Below, piece by piece: positions 17,960 to 57,728 of a stretch of 64,000 nt of DNA. Under the pieces are notes generated by a model that did not search any database, was not told the origin of the DNA, and saw only the letters and a list, made by a program, of their open reading frames with translations. Position numbers and translations under genes: made by a program. The stretch's first letter is position 1; each line of letters opens with the position of its first letter. Origin of the DNA: Candidatus Kapaibacterium sp. (lineage in GTDB: Bacteria > Bacteroidota > Ignavibacteria > Kapaibacteriales > UBA4661); the NCBI GenBank assembly GCA_025455065.1, contig JALONG010000007.1, positions 1-64,000 on the forward strand, written 5' to 3'.

Positions 17960-20146
17960 TTACTTCCCTATCGCCGTCATAACCCGCACCATGACTGCTT
18001 GTCCGTAAAAAATTTCTTCAGGAGTAACGGTTTGCTGACCGATGCGTAGTGCCGATTCTATGTTCACCGTTACATCGGGCTTATTCAGAAGTTTCGCTAA
18101 CTCTTTTGCACGTGGCATTGCGGATTCTTTTCCTTTGTCCACTTCGTAGATAAATGCCGTCAATGCGAGTGTTTTTGCGCTTCCGACGCTGCTTTTGAGT
18201 GCTGCAAGCGTTGTTTCCGTCAAGTCTTTCCCGAAAAGCGGTGATTGCCCCAAAAGGGTTTCTTCCCAACGACTATCGGCGGTGTTTCGCAATTCTTTTT
18301 CTTCCAAACTGACAAGTTTAACGGGAATGTTGGCAATCGGTGCATCGGCATTGCGATTGGTGATGTCGGTTACGCTCAACTGCACGGTAATATCTTGGTT
18401 TGAGCGCGGTTTATTCGACTGAACGTCCGCAATGTTCCATTCCACCACGTTTGGCGGCGATTGTGAATTGATGACTTCTTTCAAGGCAACGGATTCGTTG
18501 TTGATAAACTGCGAAATTTCCAATGTCCATTGCTTGATTCCCGCACCGGTATTGACCTCCAGACCAAAGCGCAACACAGGGGGATTGACGGAAGTTGTAA
18601 CAAAATCGCTCGTCAATGGAGCAAAAATTTCCGCTTGCGGACTAGACATTTCTACATATTGGTTGCTCTCTGCCCCTGCTACAACCGTCGTATTTACTGC
18701 CTTGCGAACCTCAATACGTTTCACGGGAACACGCCACACATCTTGCAGATAATCGCTGATGGCTTGTGCGCGGCGTTCATCCAAGCCCTCCGCTTCGGAT
18801 GTGCTTTTGTGTCCGATAATTTCAATCGTTGCCGCTGGATTTTCGCTGAGGCGTTTGCCGATGATATTCAAAATATGGCGGTACACATCGGTCGGCAAAA
18901 GTTCGGAAACATCAGGAAAAACGTACCGTGCGCGGGATGCGGATTGCACTCGTCTGTACCGTGCAGGCAGAATAGCGGAATTATTGTCAAAAAAAACAGC
19001 CCCCAACAGCGGAACACTCCGCCATGCGCGGAACTCTTCCACCGCAAGCGCGGGAGTTGCAGTTTCCATGCCGCGTTCATCTATGCCTTTAATAGATGTA
19101 ACGGTTGCGCTTAATCCAACTTTTTTCAGTTCCGCCAAGCGCACGGCGATTGCTTTATTGAGCGAATCGGTCTGCTTCAATCGTGCAGCATTTTGGGAAC
19201 GTTCTACAATCAAAAGGCTGTCGTAACGGCGCAGTTTCGAGATTTTTTCTTGTACTTCGGGAGTCATCTCTGGGCGAATTGTGCGGAATGGCGAGTATTT
19301 GAGCGATGCGCCAACGCGGAAGCCGGAAATTTTCCAATCCAAGCCGTTTGCTAAACTGAACAGCCCCGGAGACCAGAATCCTTCTGGTTGCAGCAATACC
19401 GTTCCATCAGCATTCAAAGGAATTTCATATCCTATGCCAACCGTCGGTGCGAGGTTAAACGCTTGTGCGAATGGTATTTTGTCACTCGTCTCACCAGAGG
19501 TTAAGCCAGTGGTTTGTTGATTATTGCCATTCAAAAACACATAGCGAGGGTCTTGAAGGCGCTCTATATAGAAAAAGGTCGAAGACAGCGCCAATCCTGC
19601 TTTCACGCCCGCATACAAAACCAATCTGCCATTAGCAGTGCGGTACGTCAAAGCTGGCTCGAAGGACAAAAAATTAAATCGCCCTTCAACGGAATACTCT
19701 ATCGGAATACTCGTTGGCTGGTCGGTTGTTTTGTCGTATGCGATTTCTGTATTGATAAGGCTTGATTTTGCGTTGTAGGTAGAGTAAGAAAGCCGTAGCG
19801 ATAAGCCAAAAACATTACGCTCCGGATTTGAAGAAAAAGAAAAGGGAAATTCTACCAATGCGCCAGCCGCAAAGCCAATTCCCGTCCCTGAGGGATACAA
19901 CAGTGTAGAGCCGACTGGAGGAGAGATGCTACCAAAGGAATTAAAATTGGGCGTTTGTGTTACCAAGTTCACTCCGCCAGTCAAGCCAAATCTTGTAAAA
20001 TAAGGGCTTTCCGCGTCAGGCGGCAGATAATCTTTGAGCCGAAGGGAATCTGACATTTGCGCCAGCAAACTAGCCTGTATGCCGCATAAAATCAGCACCG
20101 ACAAGGCTATATGGCAGAGAGAACGAATTGGGAATAAGGATTTCAT
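17960..20146 (-). CDS. OmpA-family outer-membrane protein
   Basis: A 728-residue exported protein. After a signal peptide (cut near LLAQM, residue 30) come ~260 residues of beta-rich sequence with alternating aromatic residues, probably an outer-membrane barrel (GLSLRLSYSTYNA, FEPALTYRTANGRLVLYAGVKAGLAL). A charged helical linker (about 285-345) leads to an OmpA-like peptidoglycan-binding region near 380-500 (AVFFDNNSAILP, then TIEIIGHKSTSEAEGLDERRAQAISDYL). There is an Ig-like stretch after it and then a second OmpA-like tail. Such proteins tie the outer membrane to peptidoglycan. The second half repeats the ordering seen in large OmpA proteins of this lineage. It is monocistronic; a prominent inverted repeat lies upstream. 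Confidence 0.8.
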   Translation of the reverse strand: MKSLFPIRSLCHIALSVLILCGIQASLLAQMSDSLRLKDYLPPDAESPYFTRFGLTGGVNLVTQTPNFNSFGSISPPVGSTLLYPSGTGIGFAAGALVEFPFSFSSNPERNVFGLSLRLSYSTYNAKSSLINTEIAYDKTTDQPTSIPIEYSVEGRFNFLSFEPALTYRTANGRLVLYAGVKAGLALSSTFFYIERLQDPRYVFLNGNNQQTTGLTSGETSDKIPFAQAFNLAPTVGIGYEIPLNADGTVLLQPEGFWSPGLFSLANGLDWKISGFRVGASLKYSPFRTIRPEMTPEVQEKISKLRRYDSLLIVERSQNAARLKQTDSLNKAIAVRLAELKKVGLSATVTSIKGIDERGMETATPALAVEEFRAWRSVPLLGAVFFDNNSAILPARYRRVQSASRARYVFPDVSELLPTDVYRHILNIIGKRLSENPAATIEIIGHKSTSEAEGLDERRAQAISDYLQDVWRVPVKRIEVRKAVNTTVVAGAESNQYVEMSSPQAEIFAPLTSDFVTTSVNPPVLRFGLEVNTGAGIKQWTLEISQFINNESVALKEVINSQSPPNVVEWNIADVQSNKPRSNQDITVQLSVTDITNRNADAPIANIPVKLVSLEEKELRNTADSRWEETLLGQSPLFGKDLTETTLAALKSSVGSAKTLALTAFIYEVDKGKESAMPRAKELAKLLNKPDVTVNIESALRIGQQTVTPEEIFYGQAVMVRVMTAIGK

Positions 20147-20188
20147 AATGATTGTCGAAAAATTTTGTGGGGGAAGTCTTTTTGCTAT

Positions 20189-20297
20189 CCGGCTGTCCGC
20201 TTCTCGAGCGGGCTGTCGGATTGACGCGAGAATTAAGCGAAAATCTCGTGGAAACTTTCTATAAACCCGACAGCCCGCTTGAGAAGCGGACAGCCGG
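20189..20297. repeat. 109-bp element with 31-bp inverted arms
   Basis: The left arm (20189-20219) and right arm (20267-20297) are perfectly complementary over 31 bp except one position, where the RNA would form a G-U pair. The loop is 47 nt (20220-20266) and holds a further small hairpin (CGCGAG/CTCGTG). Each arm also contains an internal fold (CCGCTT GAG AAGCGG in the right arm) and a repeated GGCTGTC. It is far GC-richer than its surroundings and has no U-tract on either side, so it is not a standard terminator. It lies between the beta-propeller gene and the OmpA-family gene. A REP/MITE-like element or structured RNA is possible. Confidence 0.8.
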
Positions 20298-20313
20298 GAA
20301 GATACCGCGAACC

Positions 20314-23300
20314 CTAACGATTTATGACCAACGTCGTTTGGTCGGAACCTTCTTGAGAGGTAAGGCGCAGAGCATACACACCGTTTGGCAAATTTGCCGT
20401 AGAAAATTTCATGGCGTGATTGCCCGCTTCAAATTCTTCGCCAACCTGCGACAGAACCATGTTCCCAAGCGCATTGTAGAGCGCAAGTGTTACCGTACCG
20501 GATTGCTTCAACGTAAAAGCTGTTTGCACGGCATCGTTAGCGGGATTGGGGGCAATTTCCGTTACCACAAGCGGCTTATCTACTTGCTTCAGCAAACGAC
20601 TATTGCCGCCAATGCGCCGGAGAATCACCTTGAACCGTCCATTTTGCGGGGCAGTTACAAACACATTATTCGTTCCCGAAGGGTCATTCCACGTGATGTT
20701 TTCGACAATCAATTCGGTCGAGTCTATTTCGGAAAGCATTGCAAGGGCAGGGATTTTCATCAGCGTCGTTTCTCTGCCATCCCACGGCGTAAGCAGAATC
20801 TTTGCGCGTTGGAAGGTATTTTGTGTTTCGGTGTTACGGGCAATTTCGGTACGGCTTTGGTTTGGTTGGATGTAGAGAACACGACGGTCGTAGCGGATAG
20901 AACCGCTAAATGGTGCGTTGCGCTGCCGGAGAACATTCAAATTTTCCTCGCCGCGAATAAAGAGTTCCAAGCTAACAGGAGTGCCGGGGGCAGCACTATC
21001 GGGAACAGCGCGTAAGCCCATCTGAACCACAATGTCGGTTGTATCTGCCTTACGGGTTACAATTTGCGCCGGAGCAAAAGCAGTGTCAATATCGGCTTCC
21101 ACCCGTAAGGTGTCGAAATACTGCCCTTCCACTGTCTGCATTGCCGATAGCAGAATTGCGGTCGTATCGCCCGGGCTTAGGAATACGCTTTGTCCTCTGC
21201 TCACGCTTAAACCCATATTTCCCGCAACGAAGCGTTGTGTATTGAGTCTGACGGTTCTCGTGCCGTAATTTGCGACAAGTGCAGGTACACTTGCTCCTCT
21301 ACCCGTAACCGATGTGCCAAAGTTGATGGGGAAGACCTTCAGCGGCGCACCGCGTCCTGTTATCCGTGAAGTGGTTGTGATTGGCTGCCCACCGTCTATG
21401 CTTGCTGTGATGCTCAAGGTCGCCGTTTTAGGTGCTGCGGTTAAGGGATTAAAGCGCACCGCAACGATAGCGAAATCTTGATTGAGAAGCGTGAAATCGG
21501 TCGTAACATTTTCGGCAATCGCAAAACTAAAATCGTCGCTGTTGGTGAGGACTGCGGGTCTGAGTTTGATGGTTCTTCCGCTCACGTTATAGACTTTGAC
21601 CAAACGCGTTGCTCCGCCATCGCGCAGCGTAACACGTCCGAAATCTACGGGGTCAATAGCAACGAGTTGATTGGACGATGATTGACGCACGGGAAGAATT
21701 GCAAAATCTTCCTCTGAAGCAGATGTGCCGCCACCTGCCGAAACGACGACTTTCCCCCGTGCCAAGACCTGTGCCGACATCGGTGATGCAGGCATAGGGA
21801 CGGTTGCGGTAATTTCTGTGGGGCTATCAACGGTAAACCGCTCTACGCGCACTCCTCCGATAGACACGCCGCTTACGGATGTTAGATTTGTTCCGAATAA
21901 TTTCACCGATGCTCCGGCTGGCGCAAAAGCTGGGCTGAAGGTGGAAACAGTTGGCGGTAAGGCGCGATAAACACCGCTTCCGCCCGGACCGCCGAATGTT
22001 CCTGCAAAAAGACCCGTTCCGCAGACCGCTAAGGTGAACACGCTCGGAGTGGAGGAAAAGCCATCATTGACGGCAAGCCAACTATCACCATTGTTTGCCG
22101 TGCGGTACACGCCTCTGGTTGTTCCGATGTAGAGTGCGCCGGCATATTCCGCGAAGGACTGAACAGATAAGGCGGAGGGCAAGCCTACATTTGCTTGTGT
22201 CCACGTTGTACCAAAATCTAATGAGCGAAATACGCCTCGCCCTGAAATATCTCCCGCAAAAATGGCTTTGCCATTGGTGTAGAGGGCGAAAACATTCTGG
22301 GGAAATGTCCCCGCTTGTACGCCCGGATTGACCGCCGTCCAATTCGTTCCGTTGTCGGTCGAACGATAAACCCCTCGTTCAGTTCCGGCAAGGATTGCAG
22401 AGCCAGATTGTATGAAAGCATTAACTGTCGTTTGAGCAGGTATGCCACCATTTGCCGCTCTCCAGCTTGTGCCGTTGTCTGTCGAACGGTAAATACCATT
22501 CTTCAGTGTTCCTGCATAGATGGTATTTCCACTCACCAGTAAGCCTAAGATATAGACTCCTCCGCCAAGTCCGTTCCTAAGTGTTTCCCATCGGACACCA
22601 TTGGTCGTCGAGCGGGCAACGCCCTCGCCGTATGTTCCCGCAAAAAGCGTTGTACCGTTTGCTGCCATTGCAAATATCCGCAACTCTGTAATTCCTACAC
22701 TTGAGGGTGTCCACGTTGAGCCGTTGTCGGTCGAGCGAAAAACGCCGCTTCCCGGTGTTCCGGCAAAGAGTGTCGCATCGTTCAGAAGAATAGCGCGAAC
22801 TTCTAAGGCAGGCAATCCCGAATTTCTCGGTGACCACGTTGCGCCATTATCTGCAGAGCGAAAAATTCCCGCATTCGTTCCTGCCCACACAATGCCGCTC
22901 AAAACACTCATTCCTTGAACAACGGTATTGATGGGAATAGTTTCGTCATTGATAGCAGTCCACCGTCCGCCGGCAGTGCGATAAATTTGTCCCCGACCCG
23001 ATCCTGCAAAAAGCTCTGTTGAACTTACTGACATTGAAATAATATCGGTTGAGGTCAAGCCTATATTCATAATATTCCATGTCGTGCCGTTATCGTCCGA
23101 ACTGTATGCTCCGCCTTGTCCGGCAGCAAAAAGCTGTAAGCCGATTGCTTGGATAGAACGAATGCTTCTTCCCAATCTATCACGAAGACCACGGCTTACG
23201 TCGCTCCATGTCAAGCCATTATCGGTCGAGCGAAAAATGCCGCCGCCATTATCTGCTCCGGCAAAAATCACGCCTCTGTGGACGTAAAGCGCTTGGATGA

Positions 23301-23817
23301 AATAGGTGGCAGACGTGGAAGTTGGCGTAGGAATGCCCGTATTGCTTGCTGTCCACGTTGTGCCGTTGTCCGTAGAGCGAAATACTCCATGAAATTCCGT
23401 CCCGGCAAATAATGTGGAGCCATTGACAGCAAGAGACCGAATACCGCTCGGCGGAGCAAAGACTTGCCGCCACGTTCTTCCAGTGTCCGTACTGCGTTGC
23501 AAGCCCGCACCGCCTGCAAAGATGGTCGAGCCGCTCACAAGTAATTCATTGAACGTTGGTTGAAGGAGCAAGCGCCAATTTCTGCCGCTATCCGTCGAAC
23601 TGAACAACCCTGCGCCGCCTGCAAAGACGGTCCCGCCCAATTCCGCAAAACAATCTATTCTGCCGCCATTGAGACCGTTACTGCGTTCCCAACGGAGCGG
23701 TCGGTCTGCCTGTGCTTGCAGCAAAAAGGGTGAATACATGAGAGCAGAGAGAATGCCCATCATTATCACGACCGTAGAATAAGCCCTACATTGAGCCAAA
23801 TGGCATCCAAGTATCAT
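20314..23817 (-). CDS. T9SS-exported double beta-propeller (BNR-like repeat) protein
   Basis: An 1167-residue secreted protein. After a signal peptide come fourteen repeats of about 40 residues with the pattern (L/I)FAGTxxxGVFRSTDNGTTWTxx, through about residue 640. Fourteen is twice seven, fitting two seven-bladed propellers of the sortilin/Ycf48/BNR type. Next is an IPT/TIG domain (TVSTFSPAFAPAGASVKLFG, near 650-730). Then come ASH/choice-of-anchor-type beta-sandwich modules (VAIDPVDFGRVTLRDGG onwards). The C-terminus (VTEIAPNPANDAVQTAF to the end) is a T9SS sorting domain. It probably acts outside the cell in binding or carbohydrate recognition; no catalytic residues can be assigned. The neighbouring OmpA-family gene downstream is also a surface protein. 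Confidence 0.85.
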   Translation of the reverse strand: MILGCHLAQCRAYSTVVIMMGILSALMYSPFLLQAQADRPLRWERSNGLNGGRIDCFAELGGTVFAGGAGLFSSTDSGRNWRLLLQPTFNELLVSGSTIFAGGAGLQRSTDTGRTWRQVFAPPSGIRSLAVNGSTLFAGTEFHGVFRSTDNGTTWTASNTGIPTPTSTSATYFIQALYVHRGVIFAGADNGGGIFRSTDNGLTWSDVSRGLRDRLGRSIRSIQAIGLQLFAAGQGGAYSSDDNGTTWNIMNIGLTSTDIISMSVSSTELFAGSGRGQIYRTAGGRWTAINDETIPINTVVQGMSVLSGIVWAGTNAGIFRSADNGATWSPRNSGLPALEVRAILLNDATLFAGTPGSGVFRSTDNGSTWTPSSVGITELRIFAMAANGTTLFAGTYGEGVARSTTNGVRWETLRNGLGGGVYILGLLVSGNTIYAGTLKNGIYRSTDNGTSWRAANGGIPAQTTVNAFIQSGSAILAGTERGVYRSTDNGTNWTAVNPGVQAGTFPQNVFALYTNGKAIFAGDISGRGVFRSLDFGTTWTQANVGLPSALSVQSFAEYAGALYIGTTRGVYRTANNGDSWLAVNDGFSSTPSVFTLAVCGTGLFAGTFGGPGGSGVYRALPPTVSTFSPAFAPAGASVKLFGTNLTSVSGVSIGGVRVERFTVDSPTEITATVPMPASPMSAQVLARGKVVVSAGGGTSASEEDFAILPVRQSSSNQLVAIDPVDFGRVTLRDGGATRLVKVYNVSGRTIKLRPAVLTNSDDFSFAIAENVTTDFTLLNQDFAIVAVRFNPLTAAPKTATLSITASIDGGQPITTTSRITGRGAPLKVFPINFGTSVTGRGASVPALVANYGTRTVRLNTQRFVAGNMGLSVSRGQSVFLSPGDTTAILLSAMQTVEGQYFDTLRVEADIDTAFAPAQIVTRKADTTDIVVQMGLRAVPDSAAPGTPVSLELFIRGEENLNVLRQRNAPFSGSIRYDRRVLYIQPNQSRTEIARNTETQNTFQRAKILLTPWDGRETTLMKIPALAMLSEIDSTELIVENITWNDPSGTNNVFVTAPQNGRFKVILRRIGGNSRLLKQVDKPLVVTEIAPNPANDAVQTAFTLKQSGTVTLALYNALGNMVLSQVGEEFEAGNHAMKFSTANLPNGVYALRLTSQEGSDQTTLVINR

Positions 23818-57593: not shown

Positions 57594-57728
57594 CAATAGT
57601 TCGGACATTTTTCAATACGAGTAAGGAAAATTTGCCAAAAGCTGCATAAAACCTCAACTCTTGTCCGAAAATACTTCGCTGTACAAGCCTCATGAAATCT
57701 AGCTTCTTGAAAAATGTCCGAACTATTG
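57594..57728 (+). mobile_element. miniature inverted-repeat element, copy A (135 bp)
   Basis: A 135-bp A/T-rich noncoding element with perfect 22-bp terminal inverted repeats (57594-57615 and 57707-57728; outer end CAATAGTTCGGACATTTTT). The interior holds an imperfect direct repeat around CATAAAACCT. A second, diverged copy of almost the same length is at 62289-62424 in the same orientation. No transposase inside. It lies between the transposase remnant and the 3' end of metX. Confidence 0.8.

Follow-up and report, generated by a model that had tools for sequence, protein, structure and literature searches.

Between two genes for surface proteins, the 64,000-nucleotide stretch of Candidatus Kapaibacterium sp. 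DNA analyzed here (referred to as the window) carries a GC-rich inverted repeat, and the question arises whether this sequence belongs to its locus or is one copy of a repeat family. A preliminary description, made from the sequence without database searches, had considered a REP-like element, a cruciform, or the processed 3′ end of the mRNA of the upstream propeller gene. The near-perfect repeat that it reported was confirmed. The two 31-bp arms (Table 1) are identical at 30 of 31 positions and separated by a 47-nt spacer, whereas 20 dinucleotide-shuffled versions of the window gave, for 31-nt arms within 100 nt, best matches of 20 to 23 positions. A repeat search extended the alignment of the arms to 34 nt at 94% identity. 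The sole odd position, G20206/T20280, had been described as a G-U pair in RNA, which holds for a transcript of the plus strand only; as both flanking genes lie on the minus strand, it is a C·A mismatch in their mRNA. The predicted folding energy of the pair was −77.9 kcal/mol for the plus strand versus −75.1 kcal/mol for the minus strand, in which this position remains open. Each arm was also said to contain a small hairpin of its own. A hairpin is indeed present, but it is not small, as on the GGCTGTC strand it is predicted to span the entire arm (−19.9 kcal/mol). Each arm represents one unit of ~30 nt with the structure CCGGCTGTCC-hairpin-GGGCTGTCGG, and beyond these individual hairpins units 1 and 2 are predicted to pair with one another. 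The repeated GGCTGTC was correctly recognized, with two copies in the left arm; this direct repeat is a wobble palindrome, the copies being joined by G-C pairs, two G·U pairs, and one U·U.

Table 1. Features of the inverted repeat and its flanking genes (positions within the window)
Feature	Position	Strand	Remarks
Downstream gene (transcription order)	17960..20146	-	728-aa OmpA-like/outer-membrane beta-barrel protein; Pfam matches below curated cut-off
Unit 1 (left arm), CCGGCTGTCC-GCTTCTCGAGC-GGGCTGTCGG	20189..20219	+	Arm-long hairpin on GGCTGTC strand; covariance-model match on - strand, 49.1 bits
First GGCTGTC of unit 1	20191..20197	+	Partner of second copy via two G·U wobbles and U·U
Second GGCTGTC of unit 1	20211..20217	+	Partner of first copy
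Spacer	20220..20266		47 nt; first nine bases are ATTGACGCG
Unit 2 (right arm), inverted copy of unit 1	20267..20297	-	30/31 identity; covariance-model match on + strand, 48 bits
Upstream gene (transcription order)	20314..23817	-	1167-aa BNR/sortilin-type propeller protein with Por_Secre_tail

The TAG stop codon of the propeller gene lies 16 nt ahead of unit 2 and the ATG of the OmpA-like gene 42 nt past unit 1, and these are the distances at which a 31-bp hairpin in the minus-strand mRNA would start after the propeller stop codon and end before the next start codon. Such a hairpin might impede 3′-5′ decay or be an RNase III site, uncoupling the propeller and OmpA-like genes. Any such effect on the mRNA of the two genes is suggested by position and predicted folding. 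That the sequence is not an ordinary terminator was borne out by a terminator search of positions 20050 to 20450, which gave no sites, the GC-rich stem having no U-tract; the 3′ hairpin predicted for the minus-strand mRNA is strong but is not an intrinsic terminator. With Rfam at gathering score, a tRNA was the only match in the window, and no family was assigned to the inverted repeat. Elsewhere in the window, a perfect 22-nt inverted repeat is present at positions 57594-57615 and 57707-57728 with a 91-nt spacer.

A search of the genome for copies had been suggested in the preliminary description, and it revealed dispersed copies with three approaches, so that the notion of a unique sequence proved false. 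BLAST of the inverted repeat against its own genome (G000; 5.61 Mb, 131 contigs) returned more copies of a single arm. The pattern GACAGYCN{6,36}GGACAGYC was found at 20 places (12 + 8), whereas its reversed control had 3; one place, C56:2634, seems to be coding. A covariance model (R1) trained on 23 units, whose training sequences match by construction, detected at least 25 units in G000 at E ≤ 0.1; with 150 candidates scored per genome, its counts are lower bounds. The units occur singly or in inverted pairs, and several in G000 are single and without element ends. The dispersed copies rule out a unique cruciform, and a unique cruciform or protein-binding site is altogether extremely unlikely: a near-perfect 31-bp palindrome could extrude, but the repeat is not unique and single units exist without a partner.

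Comparison of 23 distinct units revealed a marked strand asymmetry. On the GGCUGUC strand 98.4% of 250 cells pair. The opposite strand, on which the wobbles turn into C·A mismatches, has 82.6% of 253 cells paired. For the commonest unit, the predicted fold has −19.8 kcal/mol on the GGCUGUC strand versus −9.9 kcal/mol on the other. Four pairs are altered in both of their bases, and at the second pair 16 units have C-G and 7 have G-C. The apical parts are variable, with an AAGAA/TTCTT loop in many units.

In G000 the 25 units are distributed over 21 sites, all of which lie between long ORFs (a greedy long-ORF set was used, the gene calls being ORFs only). Fifteen sites are touched by no ORF, five by a frame no longer than 113 aa, and one (C22b) by the start of a 670-aa frame. 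The neighbors are in tandem at 14 sites, convergent at 6, and divergent at 1 (C22b, via the 670-aa frame). Many units lie within tens of nucleotides of a gene end, and their orientation relative to the adjacent genes is mixed. The family is characterized by dimers, dispersed copies, a wobble hairpin conserved on one strand, and intergenic placement. The only true orthologous locus found was that of G002, whose DNA is 85% identical over the propeller gene. Its gap is without the inverted repeat and holds instead a different strong hairpin, GTAGAGACAAGGCATTGCCTTGTCTCTAC, which is nearly the same as the hairpin filling elements of ~118 bp in G000; the gap is therefore a spot where such hairpins come and go.

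These observations bear on the possibility that the inverted repeat, whatever its origin, is a locus-specific 3′ hairpin of the propeller mRNA selected for processing or as a barrier to decay. Its position 16 nt past the propeller stop codon, the strong hairpin of other sequence in the orthologous gap, and the many other units near gene ends are consistent with such a role. However, sequence conservation is missing at this locus and copies recur elsewhere, the units have mixed orientations toward adjacent genes, and 3′ gaps tolerant of insertions account for the placement equally well; we consider such a selected role very unlikely.

With the covariance model at E ≤ 0.1, at least 52 units were detected in JANYIG (G009), a 98% complete genome of Candidatus Kapaibacterium from the same family, and at least 40 in the Balneolales genome SLQI (G061). 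The other eight relatives contained at least 3 units (G001), at least 1 each (G002 and G007), or none among the 150 candidates scored per genome (G003 to G006 and G008). Among 60 relatives the paired-unit pattern was abundant in JANYIG only (23 + 22 places), the 10 places in G053 being a simple tandem repeat. A stricter pattern applied to the species genomes gave 76 loci, 26 of them in JANYIG, 17 in SLQI, and 33 in others; the last, mostly in GC-rich genomes, are taken as chance matches. In many JANYIG pairs the spacer, 18 nt long, opens with the same nine bases, ATTGACGCG, as that of the window pair. In the flanks examined, the Balneolales units showed no TA-type element ends, and these units could be convergent. 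Viral contigs gave no matches to the repeat, leaving a link to phages unsupported. Our literature searches found no description of this repeat family.

In JANYIG the paired core lies within elements of ~155 bp with the ends TA-YTCCCTTTYGGGTGATAGA. Terminal inverted repeats TA-YTCCCTTTYGGGYGATAGA, as around the JANYIG paired cores, occurred in 8 of 10 genomes examined. G000 has 16 places with ends of this type, among them one core-bearing copy (C73), and its elements of ~118 bp combine these ends with a different hairpin inside. The same ends were found at both sides of an IS630-type region on the window's own contig, 72 kb away (C130:92172-93337), whose frames match DDE_3 and HTH_33; as the gene is split into three short frames, it looks decayed. 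Terminal inverted repeats shared with the IS are thus present in sister copies of JANYIG and in C73 of G000. Relatives of the IS630-type product at E ≤ 1e-10 were found in G001 and G006 only, and JANYIG, the genome richest in units, had none at this threshold. Two more end types, read by eye, surround paired cores of G000 (C100/C118 and C81/C28), again with TA at both ends. GACGCG or its complement CGCGTC is present in 12 of the 20 pairs listed; certain rows come from further records of the same genome. Copies of the paired core other than the window's are enclosed in elements that carry terminal inverted repeats and are bounded by TA on each side, which the preliminary description had not foreseen.

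TA stands at both ends of the sister copies, and there was no clean empty site among the loci compared (the G002 gap and the C28 copy). For the C28 copy, six of seven relatives were informative, and in the 300 nt inspected by eye none of the six has the element downstream of the peptidase; the right flank lies elsewhere, so this is a synteny break, and no target duplication follows from the site. At the window copy, the outer flanks bore no likeness beyond chance to the three end types (the best of 8 tests was equaled by 2.5% of 4000 background flanks), and relics of these terminal repeats were rejected as not significant. On the left, the flank of this copy can be aligned with the one found in the relative itself. 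With a likeness at chance level and this alignment, no terminal repeat or target duplication is shown at the window copy.

Other elements were noticed in the same genomes. Five JANYIG loci (L098, L069, L088, L113, and L128) carry a second palindromic repeat of ~250 bp (GCAGGGCTGCTAAGTTCTTCAGATTCC...GAACTTAGCAGCCCTGC) inserted in one element arm. Another TA-flanked element, TAACTGGTCAG...CTGACCGGTTA with GGCGGCTGAGGAGTG hairpins, is present in G005 (L275, C11), upstream of the gene which in G000 comes after the C28 element.

Of the three suggestions in the preliminary description, that of a REP-like element is the one upheld, with qualifications. In the literature (PMC3733652, PMC3116915), REP, REPIN, and BIME sequences are described as imperfect hairpins of 20 to 40 nt that are extragenic, lie downstream of genes, and occur singly or as inverted dimers, both homo- and heterodimers, with spacers of mostly 20 to 100 bp. 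The units of the window family are likewise dispersed short extragenic hairpins, single or in inverted spaced dimers. They differ in having neither a GTAG/CGTC tag at the stem nor a link to a RAYT, and in that their paired cores lie inside TA-flanked elements with terminal inverted repeats. At the G000 sites no such tag was found at the stem foot, the 5′ contexts being mostly AAT or AAG; in a few units CGTC is present a few nucleotides away from the stem.

A true REPIN, in which a RAYT (an HUH tyrosine transposase) moves the dimer as a single-stranded hairpin and the TA-flanked elements are mere hosts, would agree with the inverted REP-like dimer with its spacer, the singlets alongside doublets, and the strand-asymmetric hairpin. 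Y1_Tnp (PF01797) genes were also present in G000 (two) and in the Balneolales genome (two). However, the search of 11 genomes for this domain found none in JANYIG, with its 98% completeness and at least 52 units, and the examined flanks of 15 Y1_Tnp loci contained no convincing unit, the one loose pattern match (L187) not being a unit by eye. In addition, the units have no adjoining tag, and the REP that borders one RAYT of G000 is of another kind, with a GTAG tag. A RAYT-driven REPIN is unsupported after these searches, and we regard it as unlikely.

A Y1_Tnp (RAYT-like) domain was also noticed within the RecG reading frame of G006, G007, and G000, where it sits between DEAD and Helicase_C. 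The frames of 932 to 938 aa are open in G006 (L186, 379-3195) and G007 (L180, 16-2814), and the G000 copy is cut by the contig end (C58:1-1559, L029). GTAG-tagged REP-like palindromes (GTAGCACAGACATTCTTGTCTGTGC), translated as AQTFLSV/AQTRMSV, border the domain in G000. That a helicase should tolerate a REP-transposase unit within it merits a separate study. In G001 (C239; L181, 1300-3153), a Y1_Tnp domain and an MmeI/Eco57I-type methyltransferase share one open frame.

We conclude that the window pair consists of two ~30-nt REP-like hairpin units joined head to head, which belong to a dispersed Kapabacteria family. Most likely the pair is the core that survives from a TA-flanked miniature inverted-repeat transposon. 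Complete copies would have moved via an IS630-type transposase acting in trans, and copies like that of the window would have lost their ends, or else the core would have spread along another route. A more tentative and rather doubtful reading is that the hairpin unit is an independent exchangeable cassette that colonizes TA-flanked chassis with three end types, can be exchanged in place for other hairpin modules (GTAGAGAC... or CCGTCCGGCGG... types), and is maintained as a wobble palindrome so as to fold strongly on one strand without ever being a perfect DNA palindrome. Some of these modules have a similar TTCTTR/YAAGAA loop. If true, the cassette reading would mean nested, modular miniature mobile DNA without a RAYT.

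The preferred reading of a surviving transposon core also invites comparison with MITEs. Bacterial MITEs of the RUP, Correia, and QMITE2 kind are described in PMC10969869 as short, non-coding, and intergenic, with terminal inverted repeats shared with an IS, and truncated QMITE2 copies without these repeats are said there to resemble REPs. The sister elements are short, non-coding, and intergenic and share their terminal repeats with an IS as MITEs do; unlike MITEs, the window copy has no terminal repeats, and its type of GC-rich hairpin core is combined with three different end types or stands by itself. Neither REP/REPIN, defined also by tag and RAYT, nor MITE, defined also by terminal repeats, is a label that fully fits the window copy. 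Judged from its sequence, it works like a REP dimer or REPIN and very likely has its origin in TA-specific miniature transposons. Small dispersed repeats of cyanobacteria are similar in being very small hairpins, reportedly both free-standing and nested in other elements; the window family differs from them in sequence and host phylum. As far as sequence comparison indicates, the family is similar to known bacterial repeats, with a sequence of its own and without their usual tags.

With this finding, a phylum that has received little study gains a REP-like family. REP-like dimers inside miniature transposons of the IS630 type bear on how REPs may spread without a dedicated transposase. For annotation, it is a warning that such intergenic palindromes in these genomes are repeats and not gene-specific regulators.
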